Source: Tomocerus qinae (taxonomy: Eukaryota > Arthropoda > Collembola > Entomobryomorpha > Tomoceridae). From it: a stretch of 64,000 nt of DNA. The stretch covers positions 66,560,884 through 66,624,883 of the forward strand of contig CM034547.1 in assembly GCA_020055645.1 (NCBI GenBank). The letters run 5' to 3'. Each line of letters begins with the position of its first letter. Position 1 is the stretch's first letter. The translations under genes were made by a program, and so were the position numbers. The notes under the pieces were generated by a model. That model saw only the letters and a list, made by a program, of their open reading frames with translations. It had not been told where the DNA came from and searched no databases. Shown piece after piece: positions 14,899 through 64,000 of this stretch.

Positions 14899-17324
14899 AA
14901 TTGTGAAATATCTGAACTCTAAAAAGTTGTAACTTGGTGTATGTCAGGAAAGAAAAGGTTGTAGGTTCAGTTGAGATTGAATTCCTTAGACAGAAATCCA
15001 AGAAGCGGAAATAACGAAACAGAGCAAAAAATCCAAGTCAAAATTAAACGCACGAGACTAGAGTACTTATACTTAAATTAATGTGAGAATTGTGGGCTGG
15101 AACTGGAATATGGCTATATAGAGCACAGTCTTGCACTATATGGGCTTCCCTACTCTACTGCTTGGGATTTCGTTTTAATGCAATTTTATATGGTCAAGTC
15201 TTGTAGGACTACTTAGGATATCTATTAATATCTTCCTTTCTAATGAGCATAGATAACCGTAGAGGATGGATAAACATGTACCAAGTACCAAACACAATTT
15301 TTCTTTAAAAAAACCTACTTGTTAGCAACACAAAGGAAAATAAACTACGTAAGAAATGTTTGTTCATGTAAATATGATAGGTTTGTGCATAAAAATAGGT
15401 AAGCTGTATTCTGATAGTTAGCAGGTAGTAGATTAACTAACACCTAAACACTTCTAGAAGAATATTAACACAAGGTTTCTGATACTGCAAATAACCTTTT
15501 ATCTTATACACGCTGTACCTCTACTACGTCGATGCATTAAAATATAAAACTGTAGCAATCAAGGAAAAAATATATGCTAATATGGTAGTAGGGAATTGTG
15601 ATCAGCAATTATCTTTTATAACAATCTTCATAATGCTCATTCAGCCAACAGAAGTGCAGTTAGTTTAAGGACGCGGCTTAAAGTTTCCAATGATTCATTT
15701 AATTTACGACAGCGGAAATTGAAAATTGCATGTAAAATACAATATTATTGTAGATTCTAGCGTAATAAAGATAGGCATGTACTTGTGCAAATATTCCGAT
15801 TCTCATCGACAGTCGCGCTCCCTCCGTACCTCCACCTTTACGTTAGGAATAAGAAAAACTGCGATGGAAAATGCAAAATACAAGGCAAGGTGTTTAGATT
15901 ATTATATTCATAAGTATATCAAGTATTTATCTAAGTACATTTAATTGCACTTATATAGTATTCTATATGCTTCATTAGTCCAACATTTTCGTGCCATTGT
16001 CTTGCATTCTCACTTTCTGACTCTTGTGGAATGAAACAAACGTTTGGATTGTAATTTCCATATTATACTTACCTTATGAGAGTCTCGAGCCAGTCTCACA
16101 TGTCTATTAAGGTTGCATGGGGTTAAAGAGTATTAAGGAGCAGTTAATAGGAGCGATGAATCATGCTATATTAACAACCTTCCCTTCAACCAATTTCGAT
16201 TAATTTTTCGCACAGTTACTCATCATTCATCAATTCCTCGATTTAATATGTGAGTGTATAGACACTACATCCGAGACTAGACTAAAATAATAAAATCCAT
16301 TGCATAATATCGCCTTTGGCTTGTTCCAAGTACTACTTGTGTAACAATAATTTAAATATCCTCTTGATAGTGATTCTGTTAACAGAAAAGAATCTAAAAA
16401 ACAAAATTGCAATTCATCAGCAATTACTACCAATTCTGTTTCGGCAAAAAAAATTCTCTCTAAGTTTAGCCATTTAAATTCAAGCGTTTCAGTTCTTTAA
16501 CATGCTACTGGAATTCTACGCACAGATTAATACACATTCAGTTTTTATCAACATGTTTGAAAAAACTGGATTAATTCATTAAAGCGGCTTTTTGTTTTAA
16601 TTCCATTTCGGAAATTCGTTGTAAATTGTTTTATCCATCTAGCCTCTTTTGATAGTCTAACAATAAACATGATAGAAATTCTCATCGTTCTCTTAACCTA
16701 TATTAACCCCAAAGCCTTGGCATCTAGTCATGTCTGAATAGGAAAGATGTCATTGTGTAGTCTTATAAATATCTTTGTTGTGACAATTAATTGTAATTGA
16801 TAATGACGCAACACCCAATAAATAAAGCCATTTGTTCTAATTAATTTTGTGGTAGCATCTTTTAATCATTCTTCATTTCATTATCTTCTCCTGTTTCACA
16901 TGCACCATATTTACTACAATATCATTCTGTAGTGCCTACAGATATGAAATTCATTGAGCTATGCGAACCACAGTACTAAAACATAAAAAGGTGGAAATGA
17001 GAGTGCAAGAAGGTTAATGAAGGATTCTTTGGAAAACAATAACATTATTAAATAATATGAATTATGCTTATCGTCCAATTGCGTATATTTTCTTAGAAGC
17101 CCGTTCCTTTCATCGTTAGGTATGCAAAAAGTATTGAGTACCTCAATTCAAGCTAAATAAATAAATTTTTTATTTCGTTAAGTAATCACAATCACTAATT
17201 AGCAATAATTTGCCCTAATTACATTGAACCTATATTTCTGACAAAAGAAATTAAGCAATTTATTTCCAATTACTTTGTTTGCAAAAGTTGACAAATCAGC
17301 TAGACATGTGAACATAATGGTAGA
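14899..17324. other. intergenic sequence
   Basis: No gene, RNA or bounded repeat recognised. A TATATAG motif near 15115-15122 lies about 215 bp upstream of the lipocalin-like start and might be a distant promoter element. Confidence 0.45.
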
Positions 17325-17553
17325 ATATATGTGGTAGTCCAGAAGAGCAGGGGTGCCAGTAGGGCTAATGGCTAGTCCACAGGAGCACTGCTCTTGGGGC
17401 TTAGCCATAGGAGCTATCGACTTTAGTCCATAGGAGCAGTTCTGATTTCTTTGCATTAACAGTACGTATTTATTAAAAATATTATTATTAGTTATTATAT
17501 AATTAGTCAGTAGGTTAATATTGCATGAAAATACTTTGGACACAGTAAAATTA
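17325..17553 (+). repeat. left arm of a 229-bp inverted repeat
   Basis: This arm is the reverse complement of 17922-18150. I count three mismatches over 229 bp. The open frames seen in both arms are the same sequence read in opposite directions and are not supported as genes. The spacer between arms is 368 bp. Confidence 0.9.
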
Positions 17554-17575
17554 CCTAAGCCTATAGCTGGATGCC

Positions 17576-17700
17576 CCATTTATGCCAGCGGTCCTATGAA
17601 CAGAGTGCAAATTGACCTAATCGACTTGAGGTCTAAAAGTGACAGTGAGTACAAATGGATCAATTACAATTTCAATTACAATGTGGTAAAGGAATCATAG
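17576..17700 (+). pseudogene. decayed integrase-type transposon fragment in the inverted-repeat spacer
   Basis: Read from 17579 the frame gives YASGPMNRVQIDLIDLRSKS followed by DSEYKWI before a stop. It resembles the start of the integrase core in SCAND3/KRBA2-like (integrase-bearing DNA transposon-derived) proteins, where a similar RVQIDLIDMR..DGxYKWI segment begins the catalytic domain. Downstream pieces (RRVLQVQHI; LAVEELEYAHAEKIKYL) fall in shifted frames. It is a broken relic about 40 codons long. The assignment is from memory of the family. Confidence 0.5.
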
Positions 17701-17921
17701 ACTCATGCTGTATTCCTTGGACTCATGGGTATCGGACGTCGAGTGTTACAAGTACAGCATATTTTAGAGACTTGGCAGTTGAGGAACTAGAATATGCGCA
17801 TGCAGAAAAAATAAAGTACCTTGTAGTACCAAGTGTCATGTAGGCAACACTAAGTACTAATGTTCACTGCGATTAATCTCCTTTACTCTGATTCACTTGT
17901 CAATTTAATGATGTTACTTAT

Positions 17922-18150
17922 TAATTTTACTGTGTCCAAAGTATTTTCATGCAATATTAACCTACTGACTAATTATATAATGACTAATAATAATATTTTT
18001 AATAAATACGTACTGTTAATGCAAGGAAATCAGAACTGCTCCTATGGACTAAAGTCGATAGCTCCTATGGCTAAGCCCCAAGAGCAGTGCTCCTGTGGAC
18101 TAGCCATTAGCGCTACTGGCACCCCTGCTCTTCTGGACTACCACATATAT
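17922..18150 (-). repeat. right arm of a 229-bp inverted repeat
   Basis: Near-perfect reverse complement of 17325-17553. Ends in CCACATATAT, the inverse of the left end ATATATGTGG. No obvious target-site duplication beyond the shared AT run. Confidence 0.9.
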
Positions 18151-20397
18151 ATGGGCTTACTCTGAATATGTGTCGTAAGTATATACTATCACTGGCAGAA
18201 TAAGGCTAAACCAGGCTTTCTTGATTCGACTTGTGTAATTTATGGATGAACTGACATCGCTATAAATTAATGTTTTCTGATAAAAAGTATTTTTCAGTAA
18301 ACAAACAAAAGCAAAGGAGATATGTATACTAAGAAAAACAAAAGGTGCTAAATAAACTACAAAATTTGTATTTGTTTAGAGATTACTGGAAATAATTCCG
18401 CTCATGTACAACGTATACAGTTTTAAATATTCAATTCATGCCTAAACACTCTTCATGCTAGGTATTATCTTAAACACAATTTATAACAATATTGTAAAAA
18501 GCTTATTTAAAAATTTTACTATGAAACATCATGATCTCAATTTGAGAATCAGTAACTTCCACCATTTGTATCTTACGATAAATAAAACAGCAAAATAAAT
18601 ATAACTCGTTGCACCTTGCCCTATAAAAATGACATACTTATTTATACTTAGTAAATATATAGCAAAGCACTATTTTCCTAAGTATACTAAATTAAGTCAT
18701 TGAACAGAAGAACTGACATGCATTTCATGAGTGTTCAGAAACAGTATCACAGACCACTTTTATGTACAAATACTATATCATTAATAATAGAATGAAAAAT
18801 ATATTTATCGAGAGCTTTCTGCAAACGTAGCGGTAATCAAATCGAATTCATGCAAAGGTTCGAGAAATAAATAATAATTTTTATTTGTACATGGTTCATA
18901 CTAACTCTCTTAAACATTAGTGCTAATACATGCAACAAGGAGGCAGGAAAACTACGGCGCAGTATTAACATATTAGCACAGTGGCTTGAGTAGTGACTTT
19001 AAAAGCTTTCCCTAGTTTATGGTTTTATTCCTTAATTTTATGAGTAGATTGCATTCAAAGATGTAGATGTGATGTGTATAGGTATTTACGACTGTACCAT
19101 ATAATGTATGCAAAACAATTTGCCATTTACCGATGTCAGTTTTTTTGCAATTCCGTGGAGGAGTAAAAAATAATTTGTTCACAACATCCCACTTGGTAGG
19201 AAGATAAATGGATAAGACAGATAACAATACGTAAGGTAGAATTATTCATTTAGTAAACATCTATACAGTGTATAGTCTGTTACTGCTTGAACTTGAAATT
19301 GTACTAATTCCTACATCGATATTACTCCTCTACACTTATCTAGGCATACACGGCTACAGCAATAACGAGTTTTAATTTATTAATGATTCAATATTTGTAT
19401 TGACTGTCCAATGTTTTTTGATGATTGTTGTAGTTAAACTGGCAACCAGTAGAAGTAATGAGGAATTTTAAAAGGATATAATTAGGTACAGCGAACATCC
19501 TAAATATACACAACACAAATGGTCATGTACAACGAGTAAGTGGTAATTACAGAAAATAAGAATAATAATAATTACAGTTGCAACAACAAAGAAAAAAACG
19601 TGAGAAAATCTGGCTTAACTTTGGCCTTCCTTTCTTATAATAATATATGTACAGATACGTATAGTAAATATACGGCTATGAGCTTTTATTTACAATATTG
19701 ACGAAGATAGAGTAACACTTTTATTCCACCTGCACCTGATAATGCACCTCCTCCTATGCCTATTATGAGTGTTCATTATTTCAACTCATACTCATACCTG
19801 AAGGTAGTAAATGGCAAGGTTGTATTTTGTATCTGTAGTCAGTCTGTAGTGTTGACTTCTTGACTACTTGGAATTATTATGTCGCGGCGCAGTTAAATTT
19901 GACATGTGACAGGTGATGTTAACACAAACTAGTCAATGGTGACATGCAAAATGCTTAAATGTATTTAATTTAAAACTTTCAAAATCATTCAATATGGTCA
20001 AGTAAGATATATTTCTAATGTATTGTAATTTAGTAAGTAAAATTTTAATGTACTAAATTACTTAATTAAATTAAAAAACCAACAAACTGAAAAAATGAGA
20101 TCCAGGTTTTAATACTATCAAATCAGAATGTTCTAATTGGCCAAATTGAATAATTTTTGAGTTTTAAATCATTTTGTCAACATGTCACCTTTAACTACAT
20201 CTTTATACCCTGTGGATACATATAGTACATCTTTTACTATTACATAAACGGAAAGTGGGGCAAGCACATGGAATTCTGTTGAACGTTGTACGTATCTCCG
20301 TAACGTTTTATAATTGAACGTTTTATGTATGTCCGTACCGTTTTGTAAAGACTAGACTACCATATACCAGTACTGATTTTGCTTTACATTTCAACAC
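18151..20397. other. intergenic sequence
   Basis: AT-rich, no gene or bounded element recognised. Confidence 0.45.
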
Positions 20398-20400
20398 TAA

Positions 20401-20571
20401 GACCTGTTTTATACTTCTCACTTTCACTTCACTTTCACGTTTAGTGATGTCAAAATGACGTCTTTACGTTCAAACCCAAATTGGAAACATATTTTTGCTA
20501 ATTATAAATTATCTTGTAGTGGCGTCACAAAACGTGAAAGTGAAGTGAAAGTGAGAAGTATAAAACAGGTC
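20401..20571. mobile_element. PIF/Harbinger-type MITE 1 (171 bp, TSD TAA)
   Basis: Terminal inverted repeats of about 42 bp begin GACCTGTTTTATACTTCTCA and are perfect inverses at the two ends. The element is flanked by the 3-bp direct repeat TAA (20398-20400 and 20572-20574). A TWA target duplication and a TIR with a CTGTTT core are the signature of Tourist-like MITEs of the PIF/Harbinger superfamily. No coding capacity. Confidence 0.85.
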
Positions 20572-20903
20572 TAACGCATCAAAAATTGGTCTACCAAATA
20601 GTCAACGGTCTTTTGATGAAATTCCTATGCGCAATCGCTAGAAATTTACTTATTTCAACATTTTTATAGCACACTATGCTAGGTCTGCAGCTAGTAACTA
20701 TACATCATGCATATGTAATAGTAATGAGAGTACGGCATTGTATTTAGAATATACGGTATTAATTTAGGGCCAAGTCAATTAAACAGATACGGAATCTGTA
20801 ATGCTCTATCAATGCTTTAAGTACTTTAAATCAGTAATATCTTTACAACAACCCCTCCCAGAAAAAAAATCAATTCCTAATTGCCGATTAGATTGCCTTG
20901 TTA

Positions 20904-21095
20904 GACCTGTTTTAAGCTAGGTTTTGAGTTTCACTTTCCTTTCACTTCACGCGGAAAAAGGACCATTCAGTTACTTATTCTGCCTAAAATTCCAAATCCC
21001 CTCACCTGGGGCAACGGCAAAGTTTTATTTGAGAATGTTCCTTTGCGCGTGAAGTGAAAAGGAAGTGAAACTCAAAACCTAGCTTAAAACAGGTC
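20904..21095. mobile_element. PIF/Harbinger-type MITE 2 (192 bp, TSD TTA)
   Basis: Inverted ends of about 50 bp begin GACCTGTTTTAAGCTAGG, with two mismatches between arms. The flanking direct repeat is TTA (20901-20903 and 21096-21098). It shares the outer 11 bp GACCTGTTTTA and an inner TTCACTTCAC with MITE 1 but is otherwise different, so the same transposase probably moved two families. Confidence 0.85.
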
Positions 21096-21690: not shown

Positions 21691-23759
21691 CAGGGCCGGG
21701 GAATTGGGGGGGCGACCGGGGCGACGGCACCGGGCATCAAGCTGTGGGGGGCATCAAAACGGACGGAAAAATGTTTTTTTTGCCATTTACAAGATATAAT
21801 AGTATCCCAAAGTAACTAATAGAAAATGATTTCTCGGAAACAATACAGAGACAGAGACCACTAATTGGTTTATTTCCATTGTGTTACTAATCACGTCATC
21901 CGATTTTTTTAAACATTGGACATAATTTGATTGTTTCTTTAGATTGGGAAACTATAGTACTAAACTTCACAGAAATAGTGAGACAGTATCTATAGATTAT
22001 TTAATATCGTTCCTTAAGGATCCCAAAAGCCTGTATTTACTTTCAGATTGGTACCGGAAAAAGCCTACATCAATTTTTTGTTTGGTGGACGAATAAGCAT
22101 AAATCCATTTTTTGTTTGGTGGACGAATAAGCCTAAATCCGTTTTTTGTTTGGTGGACGAATAAGCCTATATCCAATTTTCGTTTGGTGCAGGAAACAGC
22201 CTCTCCTCTTACAGCCTTACGTAAAGTTGTTGTGCATTATGCATTTCTATATTGCCGTGTTCCGTAAATACAGCTCTACTCAATTTTAAAATCGATGTTG
22301 ACCAATAATTGACACACCATAAGCATCATAAATTTTCTTGTGCATGGGGCAATTATACACCCTTTTTCTTTAATAAACTAATATTGAAAAACAATAGGTA
22401 CAAAATATTTTGCATGGAAACTTTCCTTAAAGTTTGGAAATAGTTTCAAAAAATTAAGCTTTTATAGATCTAGCTTATAATTCTCCAACTAACAACAAAA
22501 TTTGTAATTTTTAGTTTTTTTAAACCGTCTCAACTCTAACTGTCTCACTCCAAACCGTGGCAACCCAAACATTTTAAATCCAAACTGTCTCACTCCAAAC
22601 CGTCGCAACCCAAACATTTTAAATCCAAACTGTCTCACTCCAAACCGTCGCAACCTACATATTCTAAATCCAAACTGTCTAAACTCAAACATTCCCAATC
22701 CAAACCGTCTCAATCCGAATCGTCTCAATCCAAACCGTGTCAGTGTAATCAGTCTCAGTCTAAACCTTCTGAATCCAAACCGTCTCAGTCTAAACCGTCT
22801 GAATCAAAACCGTCTCAGTCTAAACCTTCTGAATCCAAACCGTCTCAGTCTAAACCTTCTGAATCAAAACCGTCTCAGTCTAAACCTTCTGAATCCAAAC
22901 CGTCTCAGTCTAAACCTTCTGAATCCAAACCGTCTCAATCCAAATATTCTCTATTCAAACCCAAACAGTCTTTATTTAAAATTTCTCGATTCAAACCGTC
23001 TCATCGCAAACCTTCTGAATCCAAACCGTCTCAATCTAAACCGCCTCAACCAAAACTTTGTCAATCCAAACCGTCTCAATCAAAACCGCCTCAACCCAAA
23101 CTTCCTCAATCCAAACCGTCTCAATCAAAACCGCCTCAACCCAAACTTCCTCAATCCAAACCGTCTCAATCAAAACCGCCTCAACCCAAAGTTTCTCAAT
23201 CAAAACCGTCTACAAACCGCCTCAACCCAAACTTTCTCATCCAAACCGTCTCAACCCTAACCATCTTATCCCAAACAGTCTTAATCCAAAAACGTGTCGA
23301 CTCAAACCGTCTCAAACGTCTTAATCAATTTGTCTCAACCTAGCCACTATCTACTCAAACCGTCTCAGCCCAACCAGTAACTCCCCAAACCGTCTCAACC
23401 CAGCTAGTATCTACCCAAACCGTCTCAGCCCAAGCAGTATCTCCCCAAACCTTCTCAACCCAACGAGTATCTACGTGAACGGTCTCAAACCAACCACTGT
23501 CTCCCCAAACCGTATCAACTCAACCAGTATCTACCCAAACCGTGTCAATCTAACTGCCTCATCTTAATCGTCTCAAACTTATAATGTCATTTTTAAATTT
23601 GGCATTTTATTCCTATTCTATTTTAGTATAATACTTTGTGTCACAAAAATATTTTTGCCCGTTCTACAATTTCAGGAATGACATTAAAGTTAGTAAAAGG
23701 GGGCTGGGGGGCATCAAAATAGCGTTTGCCCGGGCAGCATTGAAACCTCACCGGCCCTG
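21691..23759 (+). mobile_element. non-autonomous hAT element, copy A (2069 bp)
   Basis: Ends are CAGGGCCGG and CCGGCCCTG, a hAT-type terminal inverted repeat. The flanks carry a perfect 8-bp target duplication CTGCATCT (21683-21690 and 23760-23767). The sub-terminal regions are G-rich and share GGGGGGCATCAAAA near both ends. Inside is a roughly fourfold 37-bp repeat (TTTTTTGTTTGGTGGACGAA, about 22070-22200) and about 1.05 kb of 15-bp satellite. No transposase frame is present, so mobility would need a helper in trans. It differs from copy B by one T in a homopolymer as far as I can see. It lies about 330 bp downstream of the half pint stop codon. Confidence 0.93.
22520..23570 (+). repeat. 15-bp minisatellite inside hAT copy A
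   Basis: Variable tandem copies of CCAAACCGTCTCAAT and relatives (CTAAACCTTCTGAAT, CAAAACCGCCTCAACC) with a 15-bp period. The period is a multiple of three, so long repetitive open frames appear on both strands (22489-22728 minus, 23058-23324 plus). These are by-products of the repeat, not genes. Confidence 0.9.
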
Positions 23760-24086: not shown

Positions 24087-27000
24087 TTATCCGGATAGAT
24101 CATTGTTTTTGTACATTGGAAATTCGTAAATCTCGCAAACTACTCTTCGACCACCAAAAAATCGTCCATGTAATGAGTTTTTAGCCGCTTCCGCTTCTGC
24201 GAATACAACAAAATTAAAATGGATTATATGATTAGAATCATAAATGTTTACTTCCTTCTCTCAAAGACAACTGTAAAGGTTTTATCAACAATTTACCACT
24301 AGGATTGGAGAATTCCACAAATATCTTAACGACAACAGGCGCATCTAATTCTTCTGATTGCTTTTCTTCATATATAATTACACGCTCTACTGCTCCATAA
24401 CGATTGCATTCTTCTGTTATTTCATCCTGCAAAGTGTCATCCACATCTTCTGGAGATACCATATTTTTTAACACAATAACAGGCGAACTTTCATTTCGCA
24501 TTAATTTTTGCATGACTAAATGCCTTGCACTCTGGCCTTTGATAGAGACATTTTCTTGAGACGACAGACTGGTGTTTTCATTGTCCTCTGCTAATTTCTT
24601 TACAAGTTCTTCTCTCTGTTGGGAAACATTAAATACATAAATTTTAATATTTATACTTGAATGACTACGACTTACTTCCTTTATCTACATTAATAACTTT
24701 TATTTTGCGGAGGAATGCCTGCGTAGTTAATTATAGGTTATTTATTACACCAGGATGCAAATACTAAGAACATTGGTAGGAATAGTAGCAGTAAATATAT
24801 TATCAATAATATAAGCTAATATAAGAATTAATACATGTCCATCAATATTTACCGTTGCATCTGCAGGAGCTATGGAAAACGGAAGAGGTGGAGCTAAAGA
24901 TGTCGATGGCACCGACTGTGGCGTTACATTACTTAGTTCTGTCGGCATGGATGGCATCGTTATTGGAATACTTAAGGGCATTGGAGGCATTGTCATAGCA
25001 GGTAGAATAGTAGGAGGAGGTATGGCCGCCACAGGAGGAGTGTTGCTAATTCCTAAAATAATCAAAAAATCATAAAAAAAATTTCTTCATAGTTTGTTGC
25101 ATTAGAAGACCTATTAAGTAAACTGAAGTCTCACTAATTACTTTTTAATAAATATGCATGAATGTTTTGGTTAGAGGTGAACGAAATAGCTTCAAGATTT
25201 CAATTTCACAAGACCAGGGGTATGGAACGAAAAAACATTGCTGAACGGTGAAAGTACCAAACAATTTACTCTTTACAATTGCCTAATTAATTGCCATAAT
25301 GAAATCCCCAATTACAATATTCTAATAATAATAATAATATTGACCAAAATCGTAAGCTATAAATATATCACAGTCACAGTATACCGTAAATATCGATATA
25401 GTTCCGCCTATCGAAATAATTCCGCGTACGCGTATTTAAAAATTACCTGCTGAAGCTGTAATAGGTGGAACAAGGCCTCCTGATATGGTAGCAGGTATTG
25501 TTACAGGGAGGACTCCTACGCCAGGAATTGCAATGCCAGGTGGAGGTACATTCGATACAATAGGGGACCCAGATAATCCAATCGAACTACTAACAGAAAG
25601 AGAACCTAGTGTTGGAGCCACCTGGAAGATCAAAGTAAAGCATATTTTTCAGTGTTGGTTATTGCAGTTTATCCTAACATGGAAGGATTTCAGATGGGAA
25701 AGGTTTGGAAACATTGCATCAACACCATACAACAATAATGATTTATATGAAGCTATTTATAGATTTCAAAATAAAGCATAACTGTAAGTTTTTATATTCT
25801 GACTCAAAATATTCGGCATCTTGAGCCCAAACTTTAAAAACTGTTACTTTACCACAAGTCGTCAACAAAACGTCTCATCATTGAAAACCAACAGGATTCG
25901 TTGTTAATTTCTTGTGGATACACCATTTAGGCTTACATTAGTAATTAATAATGAATATAACAATTTCATGGTGTAATCGTAAACTATGACTATTCTCACC
26001 AAGCGAGGAGGAGAAACTATGGATGGAACAGGGGCGACAGGTAGAGGTAATGGTGCCATTCCAATTGACACAGGTGAAAGACCCGCTGCGGCCATTGACG
26101 ACGAGGCAGCTTCGTGTTTTGTCAGTCCTAGAGCTGCAGCTGTATTTGTAACGGCTTCCATTGCTTGGATTTTAGCAGTAGCAGCAGCGGCTGCCACTGC
26201 TGCTGCTGTTGGCATTTGACTTTGCCCAGGATTGGCTTGCTGTTAAACATTTTGTAAAATTAACAATAGAGCTATAATAATGCTTTAATATTAAAAATAA
26301 TTATATAAATTGGTTATTTAACAAGACAAAAATAATACCTGCAAAGCATTAGGAGGAGTAATGGCTTTCCCAACTCTAAGGTACTGACCACCAAGATCGA
26401 ACAGGTTCATTGAGGCGATGGCTTCTGCCGCTGACTGTGCTGTTTCGTATTCAATAAATCCATAGCCCCGATGTTTTCCTGGAGACGGGCCTGGAGCAAG
26501 TTTACAAGCCTTTATTTTTCCAAATGCTTCAAATACACTAAAAATGAGCAAAGTTATTTAAATTCTGACATAAGTCTTGATTGAAGCAATTTGCTTTAAA
26601 TTTTAACACGATAGGATCACACGAAAACTACTATGATATGAACAAAATATATAGAGGTATCCACTTTTAATACAAACCTTTTAATATCTTCTTCTGTTAA
26701 ATCTGGATGTATTGAAGCAACATAAATACGATGGTATGCCTTGGCCTCGTCCATTAGGTCATCGATGACTTGGTCCATATGGGAAAACTTTATTCTGGTA
26801 TCTCTGCCACACTAAAACAATGGTACGTCAGGATTATGTCAAAACTTTCAAAGTTATTCGGCACTGTAGACAGCAGGGCCGGGGAATTGGGGGGGCGACC
26901 GGGGCGACGGCACCGGGCATCAAGCTGTGGGGGGCATCAAAACGGACGGAAAAATGTTTTTTTTGCCATTTACAAGATATAATAGTATCCCAAAGTAACT

Positions 27001-30000
27001 AATAGAAAATGATTTCTCGGAAACAATACAGAGACAGAGACCACTAATTGGTTTATTTCCATTGTGTTACTAATCACGTCATCCGATTTTTTTAAACATT
27101 GGACATAATTTGATTGTTTCTTTAGATTGGGAAACTATAGTACTAAACTTCACAGAAATAGTGAGACAGTATCTATAGATTATTTAATATCGTTCCTTAA
27201 GGATCCCAAAAGCCTGTATTTACTTTCAGATTGGTACCGGAAAAAGCCTACATCAATTTTTTGTTTGGTGGACGAATAAGCATAAATCCATTTTTTGTTT
27301 GGTGGACGAATAAGCCTAAATCCGTTTTTTGTTTGGTGGACGAATAAGCCTATATCCAATTTTCGTTTGGTGCAGGAAACAGCCTCTCCTCTTACAGCCT
27401 TACGTAAAGTTGTTGTGCATTATGCATTTCTATATTGCCGTGTTCCGTAAATACAGCTCTACTCAATTTTAAAATCGATGTTGACCAATAATTGACACAC
27501 CATAAGCATCATAAATTTTCTTGTGCATGGGGCAATTATACACCCTTTTTCTTTAATAAACTAATATTGAAAAACAATAGGTACAAAATATTTTGCATGG
27601 AAACTTTCCTTAAAGTTTGGAAATAGTTTCAAAAAATTAAGCTTTTATAGATCTAGCTTATAATTCTCCAACTAACAACAAAATTTGTAATTTTTAGTTT
27701 TTTTTAAACCGTCTCAACTCTAACTGTCTCACTCCAAACCGTGGCAACCCAAACATTTTAAATCCAAACTGTCTCACTCCAAACCGTCGCAACCCAAACA
27801 TTTTAAATCCAAACTGTCTCACTCCAAACCGTCGCAACCTACATATTCTAAATCCAAACTGTCTAAACTCAAACATTCCCAATCCAAACCGTCTCAATCC
27901 GAATCGTCTCAATCCAAACCGTGTCAGTGTAATCAGTCTCAGTCTAAACCTTCTGAATCCAAACCGTCTCAGTCTAAACCGTCTGAATCAAAACCGTCTC
28001 AGTCTAAACCTTCTGAATCCAAACCGTCTCAGTCTAAACCTTCTGAATCAAAACCGTCTCAGTCTAAACCTTCTGAATCCAAACCGTCTCAGTCTAAACC
28101 TTCTGAATCCAAACCGTCTCAATCCAAATATTCTCTATTCAAACCCAAACAGTCTTTATTTAAAATTTCTCGATTCAAACCGTCTCATCGCAAACCTTCT
28201 GAATCCAAACCGTCTCAATCTAAACCGCCTCAACCAAAACTTTGTCAATCCAAACCGTCTCAATCAAAACCGCCTCAACCCAAACTTCCTCAATCCAAAC
28301 CGTCTCAATCAAAACCGCCTCAACCCAAACTTCCTCAATCCAAACCGTCTCAATCAAAACCGCCTCAACCCAAAGTTTCTCAATCAAAACCGTCTACAAA
28401 CCGCCTCAACCCAAACTTTCTCATCCAAACCGTCTCAACCCTAACCATCTTATCCCAAACAGTCTTAATCCAAAAACGTGTCGACTCAAACCGTCTCAAA
28501 CGTCTTAATCAATTTGTCTCAACCTAGCCACTATCTACTCAAACCGTCTCAGCCCAACCAGTAACTCCCCAAACCGTCTCAACCCAGCTAGTATCTACCC
28601 AAACCGTCTCAGCCCAAGCAGTATCTCCCCAAACCTTCTCAACCCAACGAGTATCTACGTGAACGGTCTCAAACCAACCACTGTCTCCCCAAACCGTATC
28701 AACTCAACCAGTATCTACCCAAACCGTGTCAATCTAACTGCCTCATCTTAATCGTCTCAAACTTATAATGTCATTTTTAAATTTGGCATTTTATTCCTAT
28801 TCTATTTTAGTATAATACTTTGTGTCACAAAAATATTTTTGCCCGTTCTACAATTTCAGGAATGACATTAAAGTTAGTAAAAGGGGGCTGGGGGGCATCA
28901 AAATAGCGTTTGCCCGGGCAGCATTGAAACCTCACCGGCCCTGGTAGACAGAATTGTTGTGTTACCTTGATGTTACGTCCTCCTATCATGACTCCGTTCA
29001 TCTGCTCCAATGCCAATTGTGCCGCCTCCGGGAGATCATATTCAACAAAGGCAAATCCTTTGTGTTTCTGTGCAACCGGATCCCAAGACATATTAATTGT
29101 CTTAATTGGTCCTGTTTTGCCAAATTCCATTCGTATTACAAATCCTAACCCCATAATACATTCAACAAAAGCGAAAATGTTATACTTATATAATACAGTT
29201 GTTGCATAACAGGCAAATTGCATAACCCCACAACTGTATCACGCGAAATAGTAAAGCGTAAGCCAAAGGACCACCTTATTAGTGAAAGTATATATTGTCC
29301 AGTATTCTTTTGTTGTTTATTAAACTCCAAAGAGAAACTACGAAAAGGAACTGCACAGAAAAAAATATAGAAGAGAAACTCAAAACCTAATTTTGAATAA
29401 TTAAATATCAAAAAAGAAATAATTGTCTGTAGTCTGTGTCAATTCTTACCGTGGCTGTGACTCTTACAAAATGCTTTTTGGTTGGCTGATGGGAGAGTTA
29501 CTTATTAACAAGGGGAGAAAGTGTGGCATTGCAGTCTTGCTTAAAAGTGAATAGAGCAAAGCAAAAAATATAACATATATAGTACGACTTCAGTCCAAAA
29601 TTAAATATCATCAAATTCTATAAAAAATACTATTTGCCATCACTAATAAAATACCAATCATTTAAAGCCATCAAGATTGGCATGTTCACAAAATTTTCAT
29701 ATCAAAAATGCAGCTAACGTAATAAAAACCACTTGAAATGTAGAAACACACATTTTGATCAGTTGATTTAGGCCTATGAATACGCAACAATGAATTATAT
29801 TAAAAATCGGTTTCTTACCAAAAGGAGCAAATGCTTGTCGAATAGTATCCTCGCGAAGTTCAAAACTAATGCTTCCAATGTAAACTCGGCACATGAGTAC
29901 CAATGCTTGATGCCTTTGTAGTGATTTGGCTTGCTAAAATATTTCCCAAAAATTAGCAATCAGTAAGGTTGAAGGTAAACACCCAATACATAATATAAAA

Positions 30001-39059: not shown

Positions 39060-41624
39060 ATGGGAGAATTGTCATCAAAATTCGTCTGTGTTCATTTAAT
39101 TGTGTTATTTGTATGTGCTAATGGGAACGTGATGATGAACTACGAAATGTCTAATTCCAACCATGTCCCTGTAGCTGCTACCTATTCCGGAATGCGAGAT
39201 CGAGGATATAGTCGAAATTATCAATATCCTCCACCTGGTAAACAAGCTAGTAAAACACTTTCAAAGTATTTATTGAAGTATAATTAATGTATAAATAATG
39301 CAATGATGTTTAATATTAATGTCGTGTATATACTAATTATAAATGATTATGTATGTAGATAAATATGGTGATGATATGCCCTCATCGTCAAATAACAATT
39401 GGTCAGGAGGACGGCAATTAAGTTCACTTGCAGCCACCAGTTTGCAGTCCGCAGCTAGCTCAGACTACTTATATGGAGGTATTCAACTAAATTTAATTTT
39501 TTCAGGGATTTTACTTGCTATACTAAAGAGTAGCATACTAAAATACGATTATCTTAACAAAAGAAGATATGCGAAAGTTTGTTATGTAAACATTTTTTTG
39601 ATATGGAGTTGAAAACTTTAAATAAATAGACATATCGATTATGATTCTCTACCCAAAACCTTTTTTAGATACTTTAGTATTTTGTCTACCTACCTTCTAA
39701 AATTCATGTATTTAATAGCGACTGCAAATGATAACTATGCCGCTGCAAATGGCCATGGACACGGCAGCCACGCAGGCGGAGAAAAAACGTATGGTTGGGG
39801 GTAATATTTTTGCTATCTTATTCACATAGAACCGATTAAAAAATATCATTTTGAGGCAATAAAAAATTAATACCCATCACAGGCACAACAAACAATATGT
39901 TTACGTTAATAATTCAGCAGTAGGATTACTCGGATTTCTATCTCTTCTTTCTCTCATTCAGGTACCATTAGAAGTAATCCTAAATGTATATATTCGTCCT
40001 TCGTTTATGTTACCGAATTGTAGCTTATTATTATTGCCTACAAATTTGCCTTTTTACTAACATATAAATGGAAAATGTTTCTTTGTAAAATGACTTTCAA
40101 ATGGTAAAAGATATTAATATTTTCATAAAAGCTCTCTTCTTACATCAGATGTCTTACCATAGGGGTTTTATTTGCCAATATTGTGAAGAAATCATTACTT
40201 GTAAAATTAAATAGTATTGCAATTGGATTTGACTTAATTGACCTCTAAACTAAATTGTAGTTGAATTGAAGCGTTTCACTTATGTAAAAGTTCTCTTTTT
40301 AATTTTAGGAAAGATGGCTGTAATTCAGCTTTGGGACTTTTGGGTGTTCTCGGTCTGGCGTCTTATCTACAGGTAAATCTTTCTCCTGTATTGTCCATCC
40401 ACTGCATCTTCATTCAATTTTTCCTTTTTATTAAAGACGCAGACCGAAAAATATACCCAAAAGTCTTTTTCTTTATCTCACAATGAATTTCCATATAGAT
40501 CCCTATACGATATGGTTAGCGAATTTGATAAAAAATATCAGCCTTACCTTTTTCATCAACATTTCACAACAGCAACTTTTTTTTGAAAACTCAACAGCAG
40601 TAGTTATCATTATAATCAACGGCAATGACATTACAATTTTTAAGCATAAACGGATGGACAATATTATCCAAAAGTGATTCAAAAATTGTTTGATTTCATT
40701 TATATTTGTGATATAACTTCATGATATTTCTTAATTTCAATGTAGAATGTGTTAAGGCAAATGACCACAACCGCAGCTCCTGTTGTTGTACCTCCTGGAC
40801 GCAGAAGGAGAGAAATATATTCAGCTGATGGCTCAAACATTTCTACTACTTCTAAAACGCCGAGCTTAACTAAAGATATAGATGACCTTACTAACAAACT
40901 TGTTCCTCTTTTGGTAAGTTTCAAACATAAATTGCAGTGCTAAAATTACAATTCACTTTGACTGGTAGTATGCCTAATCGAAATGGGCGAATGACCAAAT
41001 TGTTACCTAATGAGGGAAAGCAGTTTTCTCCAATAACACAGTTTACTGGGTTTACAATTTTCACTTAAGAGAAAACAGATTTCTCTTATTTTTTTCATTA
41101 AAGTGCTGTTAGTGTATTTAATGGCAACAATATCTTTGTTTTCTATAAGACGGCAGTCGGACACGCCAGAGACGGTCTCATTCCTGTCAAATGTACTCGA
41201 CGACAAGTCTGTCTTGCAAATTATTTGCTTTCGAAGGAGTTGGAGATGCATGGAAAATCGATAGGAATAGTGCTAAGGTATCAATAACCAAAACACTCTT
41301 TTCTACAAAATTGTTTCTCAAAAATAGATTTTAAAAATACTACATTTAGTCCGCTAATAATATTAAGTAAAATAATAATATTGTATGCTTTCAATCCTAA
41401 ATGTGATAAAAGTTGAGATATTTATTGTATTTAATTTATGACTATTCAGCACAGCAATTGGGAAAATGTTAAAAGAAGTGGACAAAACGGGTACGGTGGT
41501 CGACGAAATAGCGAGGGCTGCTAAAGCTGGGCGAAGTGGAAAAAACTGTGAGAGACTTTATGATTCGTGTCCTGCATTAGCAAGACTGCCAGTTTATACA
41601 TTGCCTTCAGCCATTAATTTCTAA
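39060..41624 (+). CDS. secreted tandem-family protein A, with mutually exclusive exons 4a/4b
   Basis: Family not recognised. Exons: 39060-39237, 39359-39478, 39719-39800, then 39883-39961 (4a) or 40309-40372 (4b), 40746-40913, 41150-41277, 41450-41624. Use of 4a gives 309 aa and of 4b 304 aa. A signal peptide precedes a Tyr/Pro region and a short Gly/His stretch (NGHGHGSHAGG). The cassette is a hydrophobic helix: 4a NNSAVGLLGFLSLLSLIQ or 4b CNSALGLLGVLGLASYLQ. Then come a TTTAAP linker, a furin-like site RRRR172-175, HARDGLIPV with two Cys (KCTRRQVCLAN), and AGRSGKNC with LYDSCP. Four Cys are shared with the two downstream paralogues. Both cassettes enter in phase 2 and leave in phase 0; joining both, or skipping both, gives an early stop. 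Role unknown; probably extracellular and proteolytically processed. Confidence 0.82.
39883..39961 (+). other. alternative exon 4a (hydrophobic cassette, type a)
   Basis: 79 nt between TACCCATCACAG and GTACCA. Completes a phase-2 codon and ends in phase 0. Encodes GHNKQYVYV followed by NNSAVGLLGFLSLLSLIQ. The same cassette type is fixed in gene B (43869-44085). Confidence 0.8.
40309..40372 (+). other. alternative exon 4b (hydrophobic cassette, type b)
   Basis: 64 nt between TTTTTAATTTTAG and GTAAAT. Same phases as 4a. Encodes GKDGCNSALGLLGVLGLASY then LQ. Gene C (49314-49377) has an exon of exactly the same length and type. Confidence 0.85.
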
Positions 41625-43210: not shown

Positions 43211-44537
43211 ATGAAGAAATATTTCAAACTGATTGTTGTTGTGATAATTTTAGGCAGTCGATTTTTAGGAATCCTCAGTGTTGATAATCGAAATATCGTT
43301 CTAGCAAAACCCCAACTTTATATGAGTGCCTATCCCCCACCAGGACCATCTTCAGTTTCAAATTTTAAGGTTAATACTGATGGACTTCAACCCAAGCGTG
43401 GTCGAGCCAAAATAAGATTTATTCGCAACAGAAGAGAGAATGACGGTTAATTAGAAAAGTATTTATTTTTGCACATAATTTTCAACTCCATGATAAAACA
43501 TGATTTAAAATTACAGGTGGAGGTGGATGGGGAGGTCTGGGGTTGGGTAGCCGATTGATCAACTCCCTTACTCCCGGAAATCTCCTGGGATCTGCAACCA
43601 GCCATGATGATCGATACGAAGGTTTGGAATAAAACTTTAAAATATTATTGTCTGGCAATTGAAATTAACTGGTCTTTATATAATTTGTTTTTCAGAAGAT
43701 TCATATGCCTCAGCTACGGGGTATGGTCATGGTCATGGAGGAGGAGGAGGGGGCTATGGGGGCCATGGAGGAGGGGGTCATGGAGGTGGCGGGTATGCTT
43801 TTCAAAAAATAAATCCATGTTTTAGATATAGAATAATAAAATAAATAAACATTCTTATGATTTACTAGCAAGGGCCACTTGAATAATTCGGCGGTAGGAC
43901 TTTTGGGATTTTTGTCGCTGCTGTCACTTATTCAGACCGTTTTAAACCAAACAACTACAACTGCCGCACCCATGGGAAGGAAGAAAAGGGACTACGATGA
44001 AGATAGGCTGGAGAAGGGGGAATTAAGGGAGACAGGGCCTCCTACCCAAGCGGATAAAATCATTCAACTTCTTTTGCCAGTTTTGGTTAGTTTTTGGTAT
44101 AATTATTTACAGGACAATATTTTGTCATTTATATATAATTTAAAATGAATTTTACAGTCTGCGATAGCACATGCAAGAGATGAATTAATTCCTGTTGATT
44201 GTACTTTACGACAAGTGTGTCTGGCTAATCAGATTCTTGTAAGGGAATTAGGGGCTCCGGGAATATCAGTTGGTTCTATGCTCAGGTATTACGAAATTGA
44301 AATATTCTTAAACTATTGAAAATCTTATTATGCTGAAACTAAAGTTATGTGCCATTTTCTAGCGATGGGATTGGACGGATTTTAAAAGAAGTGGATAAAA
44401 CCGGAGGAGGTGTTCCTTTAGTAAAGAAATCTGGGAAGGCCGGGCGAAGTGGGAAAAAATGTCACAAACTATATCATGAATGTCCCGATATAAAACATCT
44501 ACCTCATTATTATATACCTTCTACGATGACATTTTAG
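43211..44537 (+). CDS. secreted tandem-family protein B (type-a cassette)
   Basis: Second paralogue of the unrecognised secreted family. Six exons, in frame: 43211-43445, 43517-43621, 43696-43792, 43869-44085, 44158-44285, 44363-44537 (318 aa). A signal peptide is followed by AYPPPGPSS and a basic run RFIRNRRE (possible processing site). Next come a Gly/Trp segment, then GYGHGHGGGGGGYGGHGGGG. The type-a hydrophobic cassette (NNSAVGLLGFLSLLSLIQ) runs without an intron into TVLNQTTTTAAP and the furin-like site GRKKRD. The C-terminus has HARDELIPV, CTLRQVCLAN, AGRSGKKC and LYHECP. The last two exons (128 and 175 nt) have the same lengths in all three paralogues. Gene B ends 153 bp from the convergent thioredoxin-like gene. 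Function unknown. Confidence 0.82.
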
Positions 44538-48566: not shown

Positions 48567-50123
48567 ATGTTGGCCAAATTGAAAATTAAGGATTTTTATT
48601 TAATCTCAATAACCATTTCTTTAAAACTGCTTCACGTGCTTGCTCAACACCAAAAGGAAGCCGAAGAGATAATTTTCAAAAATTCTACATTAGGAAACGC
48701 ACATAAAATTCCAGGTGTTGAAATAAATACTCCGTCAGTTCAACCGATATTAATGAGAAGACGCAGAGAAAATTACAAAAGTTATGGAAACTTTAAATCG
48801 GGTAAGGGGCTAAAATCTTTTGCGTAGTTATGCATAAATTCTTTTAAATCGAATTTATATGGAGTCCAAAAAATTACCAGCCATCATGCAGATTATTTGA
48901 AATAATGAAAAGCAGTAACCATTTGGCGAAATATTTTAGGAAAACCAAAAGGATGGAGTGAAAGAGAATTGAACGTTGATAACCACCAAAATTCAGCTTC
49001 TTCCACTGACTATGTCTATTCCGTTACCGGTTAGAGTCATTTATTCTACTACACCATCACCTTCAGTATAGTATACATAGTATAGTATAGTATGTGATAT
49101 ATATAATTTGAATATGCATTACTTAAGATTTGGACGAATATGGAAGCTACGCTGCGGAAACGGGCTACGGTCACGGTGGTGGACACGGAGGAGGAGGAGG
49201 CTACGGTCACGGGGGAGGAGGACACGGTGGCGGCTACGGGTAAGATGATAAAAAATATTTTTTAGATATAAAAAGTTCAGTATTGAATTTTGAGTGTCGT
49301 TATCTCCATTAAGGAAAGGGGACTGTAACTCTGCCCTTGGACTTCTTGGCGTCATTGGCCTCGCCTCTTATCTACAGGTCTCTTACACATTAAATATTTA
49401 CAGCTATAAGAAACAAGGTATAACAGTTTAGTTTCTGCCAGCAGAATGTGCTAAGACAGATGACGACAACAATGGCACCTGCAATGCCACCCGGAAGGAA
49501 AAGGAGGGCAGTGTCCGATGTTAACATGTCCTTCACCAATGAAGATATGAAGCAACCGTCTGTGGAACCCGATATGGACAGATTGATGAAACTTTTATTG
49601 CCTTTCATGGTACGATCTCGATCGATTAACTTCAGAATGCATAAATGCTGGCCAATTAAATATTAACACTAAAATTATTCCGAAACTTACTTCTACTTAG
49701 TCATGTGTAATGATAATAATTTAATTTTTATTTACGTTTATTAGACTGCAGTGGCTCATGCTCGAGATCGGTTAATTCCATTGAGCTGTACTCATAGGCA
49801 CATTTGTCTTGCAAATGCTCTCCTTGTTAAAGAACTTGGAGAATACGGCCGATTTGTAGCAACTCTTTTAAGGTTCTTTTAAATCCTAACATATAATTAA
49901 ACCTTGGAGTACAGAAAAAATAATTTGTTCTTATTTCCTTTATGTTAGTGCCAAAGTTGGAACTATGCTGACGAAAGTTGACAAACTTGGGTCTATTGTG
50001 AAAGTGGTAGATAAGATAGCCAAGGCTGGACGAAGTGGCACTAACTGTGCTAAAGCATACAAATACTGTCCAGTTCTCTCTCAGCTTCCTTCATATTCTA
50101 TTCCAGCTGGGTTTATTCTGTAA
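48567..50123 (+). CDS. secreted tandem-family protein C (type-b cassette)
   Basis: Third paralogue of the unrecognised family. Seven exons, in frame: 48567-48801, 48940-49029, 49128-49239, 49314-49377, 49445-49609, 49745-49872, 49949-50123 (322 aa). The first ATG in frame is 48567; codons just before it are TTG GTG AAG. Signal peptide, then a processing-type run MRRRRE, then a Gly/His region (GYGHGGGHGGGGGYGHGGGG). The type-b cassette follows (CNSALGLLGVIGLASYLQ, 64-nt exon like 4b of gene A), then NVLRQMTTTMAP and the furin-like GRKRRA. The C-terminus is HARDRLIPL, CTHRHICLAN, AGRSGTNC, YKYCP and PSYSIPAGF. The exon of 235 nt at the start matches gene B; the last two exons match both paralogues in length. 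Function unknown. Confidence 0.82.
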
Positions 50124-60925: not shown

Positions 60926-63900
60926 ATGTTACATCCACTAGTCAAATCTTGCTTTGGAACATTTGTAGTTCTGTCGTTACTTTCTGTACAAAATCATGTC
61001 TCAGCTACTCCTGGACACGTTTATTTTAGCCAAGGTGGTAGCGGCTATCAATTTGACATACCGGATGCCACATCAGGTAAAATTCCATTCAACAATCTGC
61101 ATGAAATAATTTATTAGTGTAAACATTTTCTTCCATCAAATGGAAACTATGGTTTAATTACCTACTTACTTTTAGAAACATGGTGAAACAGCGAGAGAAA
61201 CGCTAAGCTTAAATTCCGTCTATAATTACCATGTTTATTGTTTATCATTCATCTATTTGAAAGTAGAATTAACTAATTATTATTTAGCGCATAAAAAGTT
61301 TTCGGATGTAAAAATACCTATTTAACTTTTATCCTACTGTAAATTTAATTTTTCATCTACATAAAATTTTAATCTAAATTTTTGAGATTTTAATCTCGAA
61401 AAAATATCTAGGCATGCACTAGTGGACCAATATAGACGGTTATGAATAAAGGTTTGCTATGCCAAAAATTGCGTGAACTCAAAACAAGCAGAAAAGTCTT
61501 TAAGCCCAGTTACCGTAAAACCTAAATCATATTTTTAACAGAATTTCACTTAGGAAATCAATTTTCATGGATGAAGACAGCAAAGTTCTTTTACAGCTTA
61601 TCTAAAAAATTGTTATGAAGAATTACTTTACACACTGTACTACAATATATCACTTATAGACAACTATGTTTGCGAATTTCTAACTGTAGTGGACAGTTCG
61701 AAATTTGAGTGCAGAGGAATGAAATCTTTAATATGTATGGGCCATTGGGTTATAGTTTTAACATTTTTACTGTCTATGCATGCCCAAAATGTATTAGAAG
61801 CAAAAAGTAAAGCATACATCTTTTGGTCGGCTAAATAATTCTGTTACCAGACAGGCAACTAATGAATTTCAAAATCTATCATGAATTAATATCATTTTTA
61901 TCTTCCCTAGGAGTGAGCCATGCAGCTTTCGAAAAGGGTTCGGGCCTAATATTTCCGGGATTTACTCTAGAAAATGTTAAGAGTTTGAAACCAACGCAGT
62001 TAGCCGAAGCAACAAAGGTCGAAAAGGTAGTGGTTGCGGCAGAAACGAAAGATGTTAAGACGGAATCAGCGGCAGCACCACCACCAGTAAAAAATGTCAG
62101 GCCGAAAGCGCCCAAAAATGGTAATTTGACTTTTTAATGCTATGGATTATTTCTTTCCGTACATTATAATTATGACTCAAGAGTCGTAGATCATTTTCCT
62201 ACATACAAAACAAATACGTTTTAGTCATAGTTTGCCCCTAAAATCTCATCTTTGCAATAAGTTAGCTATGTATTATGTACATACATTTAAATACATTTAA
62301 TTTCTTCTTAACGCAATGAATTTTCTTTCAGTTGCAGTTTCTGGGAGAGATCTTCAAACAGGGGCGGAGAGCAGACCACGTCCCGAATTTCTAAAGCTGC
62401 AGACTCCAAGTCCTCGTCGGTTTGAACATTCTAGTTCAAGTTCAGAATCAGGATCTGGAAGTCAAGACTCATCTGAAAACGAGGCATGGACATCGCCACC
62501 CAAGAAATTTCACAAACTACCCAAGTGTAGCCAGATGAAATGGCCAATGGCCAATCCAGATAAGAAATGTTACAGTCCGGCAACCTCAGTTCGGGCACGT
62601 CAAGTGCAACCAGCCTTCAACACAAGACTATTGCCAAGACCACTTTCTCCAGTTAACCCCAATGCAGCATTAGAGTTTAGGAATAATTTCCCACCTAGAC
62701 CACATCATTTTGGACAGGCAAGCAACTCTCACCAACACTTTTCTGAATCAGGACCTCCCAGAGCTCCGATGACTTATGCTGAGTATAAGAGCATGTTTTC
62801 AAATAATCCCCACTACACTCATGGAGATCAGCCAAGCTACAACCAAGGGAAATATCCTTTGACTGCTACAGTTGACAGTTATCGCGTAAATTCTCAAAAA
62901 TCGGGCACTGGTTACGGGTACGAAGCGACAACTGCATCTCCACCTAGCTATAACAAGGGACCAAGCTACAACTATGGAGGACAACAATCTCCCCCTAGCT
63001 ACAGTTATGGACAACAATCGACAACTCAAGCACCACCAAGTTACAATTACGGACAACAATCACCGACTCAATCGCCCCCAAGCTACAATTATGGACAACA
63101 ATCGACAACTCAATCATCTCCTAGCTACAACTATGGTCAACAGTCACCTACACAAGCGCCACCAAGCTACAACTATGGACAACAATCAACCACTCAATCC
63201 CCTCCAAGCTACAACTATGGACAATCACCTACACAAGCGCCCCCAAGTTACAACTATGGACAACAATCGACCACTCAAGCACCTCCAAGCTACAACTATG
63301 GACAACAATCGACCACTCAAGCCCCTCCAAGCTACAACTATGGACAAAAATCTGCCACCCAATCGCCTCCAAGTTACAACTATGGTCAACAATCGACCAC
63401 TCAATCACCTCCTAGCTACAACTATGGCCAACAGTCACCTACACAAGCTCCACCAAGCTACAACTATGGACAACAATCAACAACTCAATCGCCTCCAAGC
63501 TATAACTATGGTCAACAATCAACTACTCAATCGCCTCCTAGTTACAACTATGGCCAACAATCAAACACTCAATCTCCACCCAGTTATAACTATGGTCAAC
63601 AATCAACCACTCAATCGCCTCCTAGTTACAACTATGGTCAACAATCAACCACTCAATCGCCTCCTAGTTACAACTATGGTCAACAATCAACCACTCAATC
63701 GCCTCCTAGTTACAGCTATGGTCAACAATCGACCACTCAATCGCCCCCAAGCTATAACTATGGTCAACAATCAACTACTCAATCGCCTCCTAGTTACAAC
63801 TATGGCCAACAATCAACCACTCAATCTCCACCCAGTTATAACTATGGTCAACAATCAACCACTCAATCTCCACCCAGTTATAACTATGGTCAACAATCGA

Positions 63901-64000
63901 CCACTCAATCGCCTTCTAGTTACAACTATGGTCAACAGTCAACTACCCAAGCGCCATCTAATTACAACTACGGTCAGAGTTCCAACAACGGTGGAGGAGC
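60926..64000 (+). CDS. secreted SYNYGQQ-repeat protein (5' part; runs off the window)
   Basis: Partial gene, not recognised as a known family. Exons: 60926-61076, 61911-62120, 62332 to beyond 64000 (at least 676 aa, no stop reached). Residues 1-28 are a signal peptide (LVKSCFGTFVVLSLLSVQ; SATPG). Exon 2 is Lys/Val/Ala-rich (VEKVVVAAETKDVKTESAAA). Exon 3 begins with a Ser/Pro/basic stretch (SSSSESGSGSQDSSE; two Cys) and from about 62950 becomes roughly 23 copies of a 14-residue repeat, consensus PPSYNYGQQSTTQS, period 42 bp. Tyr/Gln/Ser/Pro composition with a signal peptide suggests an extracellular structural, adhesive or cuticle-associated material. The SYGQ motif resembles prion-like domains of FUS-type proteins, but those are nuclear. 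Intron 2 is 834 bp. Confidence 0.78.
62990..63970 (+). repeat. 42-bp coding minisatellite
   Basis: About 23 in-frame 42-bp units. Codon usage varies between neighbours in the first half (GGACAACAATCG, GGTCAACAATCA). Units after about 63500 are more alike, suggesting recent local expansion. One unit near 63222 lacks a single Gln codon. Confidence 0.92.

Follow-up and report, generated by a model that had tools for sequence, protein, structure and literature searches.

Competing intronic RNA pairings as the probable basis of an either-or exon choice in a DM4/12-like gene of Tomocerus qinae

Control of mutually exclusive exons by an intronic docking site and competing selector sequences is an established mechanism in insects. 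The docking site lies in the right-hand intron in 14-3-3zeta, Mhc and MRP1 (PMC6071210), exon 4 of the beetle Dscam1 gene has selectors downstream of the variable exons (PMC8042237) and selectors that overlap exons have also been reported (PMC8042237, section 11). PMC6071210 also gives a model for the origin of such systems, in which one arm of the stem is duplicated along with the exon, and describes a second route to exclusion, through the reading frame and nonsense-mediated decay. Natural switching between docking conformations is left for further work in the discussion of that article. In human gene families, sister genes are known to retain a single cassette apiece (PMC9741552).

Here we analyse gene A, one of three tandem genes in a 64,000-nt window of the Tomocerus qinae genome (GCA_020055645.1, contig CM034547.1, positions 66,560,884 to 66,624,883; coordinates below are those of the window unless stated). 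We consider it probable that exon choice in gene A is mutually exclusive and governed by intronic RNA structures that compete with one another, while the reading frame serves as a back-up filter.

Gene A occupies positions 39060-41624 on the forward strand and is composed of exons 1, 2, 3, 5, 6 and 7 together with two cassettes, 4a and 4b. Exon 1 (39060-39237) carries the start codon and a hydrophobic N-terminus that resembles a signal peptide when judged by eye, from which the protein is predicted to be secreted. It is followed by exon 2 (39359-39478) and by exon 3 (39719-39800), which is rich in glycine and histidine and ends in phase 2. Cassette 4a (39883-39961) encodes the helix NNSAVGLLGFLSLLSLIQ and cassette 4b (40309-40372) the helix CNSALGLLGVLGLASYLQ. 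Exon 5 (40746-40913), with NVLRQMTTTAAP as its first residues, contains the basic site GRRRR, while exon 6 (41150-41277) and exon 7 with the stop codon (41450-41624) encode the DM4/12-like region. All borders are AG/GT and the phases are consistent throughout, with both cassettes entering in phase 2 and leaving in phase 0. The original prediction had given the coordinates from exon 3 to exon 5 and the lengths (79 nt for 4a, 64 nt for 4b) and phases of the cassettes correctly to the base, and its proposal that exon 3 can be joined through either 4a or 4b to exon 5 at 40746 also holds; the single-cassette proteins, of 309 residues with 4a and 304 residues with 4b, are both in frame.

That prediction went on to describe a mutually exclusive pair, enforced by the reading frame, in a secreted protein. 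A homologous and apparently mutually exclusive pair is supported, as is predicted secretion by the signal peptide seen by eye, but the role given to the frame is not supported in the form stated, and that of a membrane-active or core helix is conjectural. The spliced frames do confirm that the wrong combinations stop early: with both cassettes the protein ends after ...LSLIQ-ERWL and with neither it ends after ...GWG-MC, in both cases well upstream of the last exon. However, these shifts occur because the duplicated exon has a length of 3n+1. They follow automatically from duplication of such an exon and are therefore not independent evidence. The filter is real, in that the full protein is encoded by one-cassette messages only, though it merely discards wrong messages. 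From the predicted pairing of an intronic docking site with its selectors, RNA structure would seem the likelier selector of the cassette, acting at the level of splicing; this pairing did not figure in the original prediction.

The two cassettes are adjacent, homologous and of the same phase, each fits the flanking exons, and their helices are identical at 11 of 18 residues. A six-frame scan of the window revealed four such helices, two in gene A and one in each of its tandem paralogues, gene B (43211-44537, forward strand) and gene C (48567-50123, forward strand). The 4a helix matches that of gene B at 18/18 residues, and the 4b helix matches that of gene C (exon at 49314-49377) at 17/18. 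Gene B has only the 4a-type helix and gene C only the 4b type. Over the 18 helix codons there are 13 nucleotide differences between 4a and gene B with no amino-acid change, and 14 between 4b and gene C with one amino-acid change; 11 synonymous changes stand against none and one respectively, with synonymous sites near saturation. When changes were placed at random, none of 20,000 draws equalled the real value in either comparison. The protein tails of genes A, B and C beyond the basic site are only 44-48% identical. Conservation of the helices amid so much synonymous change, next to diverged tails, argues that both cassettes have been selected as coding exons, and the sequence comparison thus indicates strong purifying selection on 4a and 4b alike. 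It is very unlikely, then, that gene A makes a single protein, with one of its cassettes a dead or cryptic relic. The acceptor of 4a is poor in pyrimidines (9/18, against 14/18 at 4b) and a hairpin engulfs 4b (see below), as might be expected of a remnant, but near-saturated synonymous change with so few amino-acid changes would not be, and the splice sites and phases of both cassettes are intact.

Common to the two helices are the motif GLLG and small residues spaced three apart (S3, G6, G9, S/G12 and S15), which form a stripe. They differ in that the 4a helix, like that of gene B, has the sequon NNS, whereas that of 4b, like gene C, has a cysteine instead. This cysteine is an odd fifth one, added to the four that exons 6-7 encode; two further cysteines of gene A lie in the presumed signal peptide. 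In the alignment, genes D and E, two further members of the family introduced below, have neither sequon nor cysteine at this place. A run of basic residues follows the helix in all five genes, which we take to be a motif of the furin-site type. The swap of 4a for 4b would seem to trade an N-glycosylation sequon in the helix for an extra cysteine while keeping the small-residue stripe.

A candidate docking site lies at 40621-40664 on the forward strand, in the intron between 4b and exon 5, and ends 81 nt upstream of exon 5. It is predicted to form 38 pairs with selector a (39990-40038, forward strand), which starts 28 nt past the 4a donor, with pair probabilities of 0.64-1.0, and this pairing is retained when the region is folded to its minimum energy. 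Part of the same site, 40652-40664, can form 13 contiguous predicted pairs with selector b (40388-40400, forward strand), which is much shorter than selector a and starts 15 nt past the 4b donor. One intronic site is thus complementary, beyond chance, to a sequence beside each variable exon. Exon 4 is thus present as a tandem pair of homologous copies, and the docking site can pair with selector a or with selector b but not with both, the bases 40652-40664 being claimed in both duplexes.

To judge these pairings, shuffled introns were scanned for every possible docking site, so that the test is corrected for the search. The weaker of the two pairings has an energy of −17.9 kcal/mol, compared with −14.7 kcal/mol for the best of 1000 shuffles, and no shuffle reached the real value; the sum of the two pairings was likewise reached in 0/1000. 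None of 648 GC-matched windows attained the value of the weaker pairing and two attained the sum, while without GC matching (2495 windows, both strands of the sequence) 17 attained the former and 31 the latter. The pairing of selector b with the docking site was equalled in none of 500 shuffles, and the selector arm 39985-40040 gave a z score of −6.6 (0/200 shuffles). Amongst the nine intron pairings tested, that of the 4a-4b intron with the 4b-5 intron and its selector arm stand out (0/200 shuffles each); the other seven are unremarkable, being equalled by between 30 and 136 of 200 shuffles, and none of the upstream (left) docking pairs rises above the shuffles. Cruder measures were less discriminating. 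For the duplex between the two introns (99 × 373 nt), the raw energy was reached in 979 of 3160 unmatched windows, and in 1 of 1000 shuffles, and a first test of a 21-nt core of the docking site against the 4a-4b intron gave P = 0.054.

An origin of the arms in a repeat element was rejected: the stretch containing selector a (101 bases) and that containing selector b together with the antisense arm described below (128 bases) each match only their own place in the genome, in a search that skips simple repeats and whose counts are lower bounds. Homology between the two downstream introns was also sought beyond the selectors and is weak, since 33 of 1000 shuffles did equally well. Just past each selector there is a 20-nt direct repeat (40041-40060 and 40415-40434, 85% identical), possibly a trace of the original duplication of exon plus intron.

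These results bear on two other explanations of how exclusion might be achieved. In the first, splicing is loose, the frame and nonsense-mediated decay remove messages with both cassettes or neither, and the RNA pairings are incidental. The early stops are what it requires, and exclusion through decay has been described (PMC6071210). On the other hand it offers no reason for the docking site or the hairpin to exist, both of which lie far above shuffles, the weaker docking pairing also lying above GC-matched windows; we regard it as unlikely, if a serious contender. In the second, exclusion would result from steric crowding, a mixture of U2 and U12 introns or a distant branch point. These routes are known for clusters of two exons (PMC6071210; PMC7969005). 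The intron between 4a and 4b is 347 nt long, and the nearest upstream AG leaves an exclusion zone of just 16 nt at the 4b acceptor, so that neither a very short intron nor a long AG-free zone is present. The donors are ordinary GT sites and do not conform to the U12 pattern. We give this second explanation next to no credence.

A second structure involves exon 4b itself. Positions 40333-40364, within the exon, are predicted to form 29 base pairs with an intronic antisense arm at 40434-40467 (both on the forward strand), so that the predicted hairpin encloses the 4b donor and holds selector b in its loop. The stretch has a predicted folding energy of −52 kcal/mol (z = −6.3, 0/200 shuffles) and the exon-intron duplex was matched in 0/300 shuffles. 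Across windows of equal size 28/3192 fold as well, some 20 of these lying in repeat arrays or fold-backs, and a duplex as strong between one segment and the next was found at 9/3190 positions, one of them overlapping the 4b hairpin itself. No such hairpin is seen at the 4b-type exon of gene C (z = −0.02). That gene C, without a choice to make, is without a hairpin is a point in favour of the hairpin being part of a switch.

That the hairpin simply blocks the 4b donor was considered and rejected, as the donor is unpaired with a mean probability of 0.50, within the range of the other donors (0.26-0.64). A counterpart hairpin at 4a was also sought. There is a 10-nt perfect complement (P = 0.013), but the local fold is ordinary (z = −1.04, equalled by 29/200 shuffles), and we do not propose a hairpin there.

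Elsewhere in the window, long fold-backs (inverted repeats) are found at 17199-18165 and 20401-21080. In the former nearly the same peptide is encoded by both strands, and it is therefore probably, from its sequence, the remnant of a mobile element. There is also a direct duplication of 2,070 bp, 99.95% identical (21691-23759 and 26874-28943), which holds a strand-asymmetric low-complexity array. The minus-strand gene that contains or adjoins it is presumably PUF60/half-pint-like, a name we take from its RRM sequence. At the right-hand end of the window an open frame at 62301-63998, containing many imperfect repeats of the type PPSYNYGQQSTTQS, continues past the window end.

Folding of the region under constraints shows how the docking pairings and the hairpin may interact. 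In the free fold (−246.1 kcal/mol) selector a is paired and the 4b hairpin is closed. Once a penalty keeps the hairpin open, the fold with selector a (−224.4 kcal/mol) is slightly preferred over that with selector b (−221.6 kcal/mol), a gap of 2.8 kcal/mol. With the hairpin open and the pairing of selector a to the docking site blocked, selector b pairs unaided (12/12). With the hairpin closed, selector b fails to reach the docking site even when selector a is blocked from it, under nested folding, which cannot score the hairpin and the selector b pairing jointly as these would form a pseudoknot.

On these models, and if the structures act in the cell as predicted, the following sequence of events may be envisaged. 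In the ground state, closure of the 4b hairpin would follow at once on its transcription. Its loop would tie up selector b, and selector a would pair with the docking site. This pairing would loop out 4b and bring the donor of 4a close to exon 5, from which the 4a message would result. Were the hairpin opened by some factor, selector b could become a rival for the docking site, and exon 5 would instead be joined to 4b. Messages with both cassettes or neither would be frame-shifted and probably destroyed. Sister genes B and C each carry one choice of helix permanently. More tentatively, the 4b hairpin could be a regulated lock that hides both exon and selector. A single opening event, brought about by a helicase, by an RNA-binding protein or through editing of the duplex, would then expose the exon and free its selector. 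Exclusion would then have three layers (sequestration, competition for the docking site and frame-shifting of errors), and the switch would toggle between a glycosylated protein and one capable of a disulphide, of the kinds that B and C make constitutively. We regard this as a possibility, and not the likeliest one.

The genome (334 Mb in 115 contigs) has TTAGG arrays of the arthropod type, with 235 exact matches in the forward and 296 in the reverse direction where the control gave 0. To place gene A in its family this genome was searched with the gene B helix, the join of 4b with exon 5, and exon 6. Five members were found, A to E, two of them (D and E) through these searches of the species' own genome. 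Gene D (L016 1051-2379, minus strand, on C4) consists of one uninterrupted open frame, 417 residues long from the first methionine, and is likely a retrocopy of an E-like gene. Gene E (C2, the contig of the window, 49.252-49.254 Mb), which was found via exon 6, has several exons, of which exon 4 is 79 nt long and the first ones lie outside the model. One helix is seen in each of D and E, and these resemble the 4a type about as closely as the 4b type (9-11/18), so that on the sequence the helix residues by themselves do not settle which type is older. In a tree of the exon 5-7 part (five sequences with long branches, 200 replicates) D and E join with a bootstrap of 100 and A and C with 92, B lying outside both pairs. 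Taken with this tree, the 79-nt exon 4 of gene E suggests that the 79-nt 4a type is probably older and 4b a derived copy, with gene C probably having lost 4a afterwards. The origin of 4b may be later than the split of B, in which case B need not have lost it.

The intron that follows exon 4 (or 4a) is present in A, C and E and absent from B, where exons 4 and 5 are fused (43869-44085, forward strand); it is the sole one missing among the modelled introns of B. The single-frame gene D lacks it as well. So clean a loss is the outcome expected from recombination with a spliced 4a message, which we infer to be its cause.

In an alternative history gene A is a chimera, in which unequal crossing over, and not internal duplication of the exon, brought together the 4a of a B-like gene and the 4b of a C-like one. 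The nearly perfect matches of 4a to B and of 4b to C would fit, as would the tandem arrangement of the three genes. The tree of exons 5-7, for its part, joins A with C (bootstrap 92, on the five long branches noted above), exons 2-3 of A are nearer to C by eye, and the B-like left half that a chimera should show is not seen. We think it doubtful for these reasons, and it bears on the origin of the switch, not on its working. The layout agrees with the origin model of PMC6071210, duplication of a stem arm together with its exon.

The protein of gene A is filed on its sequence as DM4/12-like only. Against Pfam DM4/DM12 (PF07841), genes A, B and C gave E-values of 7e-4, 0.62 and 0.041, and their scores (20.6, 11.2 and 15.0 bits) all fall below the curated cut-off of 22 bits. 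Four cysteines are aligned in the exon 6-7 part of all five genes, and four conserved cysteines near the C-terminus are described for DM4/DM12 in PMC12825958. Searching the genome with the Pfam family gave 12 places, none of which is any of genes A-E, and it is hence no census; in stretches of about 3 kb around these (one strand, three frames) the best helix match was at most 8/18. The exon 6-7 part had no match to a solved structure up to an E-value of 1. No relatives outside this genome were confirmed among 21 pattern hits in viral_contigs and 33 in genome_contigs, which hold viruses and prokaryotes, not insects.

Gene A is a compact, two-choice case of exon choice driven by RNA structure, on the reading preferred here. 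Exon 3 to exon 5 spans less than 1.2 kb, and the whole switch therefore fits in one minigene, with the adjoining genes B and C as natural controls in which the choice is fixed. The hairpin lock, if true, would reveal a means by which cells might control a switch of the docking-site type. The choice made in splicing and the duplication of genes appear here to trade places within about 11 kb. In titles and the beginnings of abstracts, a literature coverage that is limited and gives no proof of absence, no description of such a switch in this protein family was found.

As set against the known systems, gene A is an either-or pair of the docking-site and selector class in a little-studied family, the extra lock being unusual. 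With beetle Dscam1 exon 4, 14-3-3zeta, Mhc and MRP1 it has in common the tandem homologous exons and a docking site in the right-hand intron, with selectors right behind the variable exons and contested docking bases. It differs from this class in having two variants only, in encoding a secreted DM4/12-like protein, in that wrong products are frame-shifted, and in the strong exon-intron hairpin with one selector in its loop. The bidirectional or pseudoknot-limited pairing of srp and RIC-3 (PMC6071210) likewise involves a pseudoknot and two structures that could hardly coexist, but gene A is without an upstream (left) docking pair above shuffles. Gene A, like B and C, departs from DM4/DM12 (PF07841) in the long front rich in glycine and histidine and the invariant GLLG helix, and all three remain below the cut-off, whereas the C-terminal region and its four spaced cysteines are shared. 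Finally, the FYN family, CACNA1S/CACNA1F and PGM1/PGM5 (PMC9741552) also have both cassettes in one gene and one in each sister. Here, in contrast, three tandem genes lie within 11 kb, B lacks the neighbouring intron and may never have had a 4b to lose, and a single-exon relative is found elsewhere in the genome.
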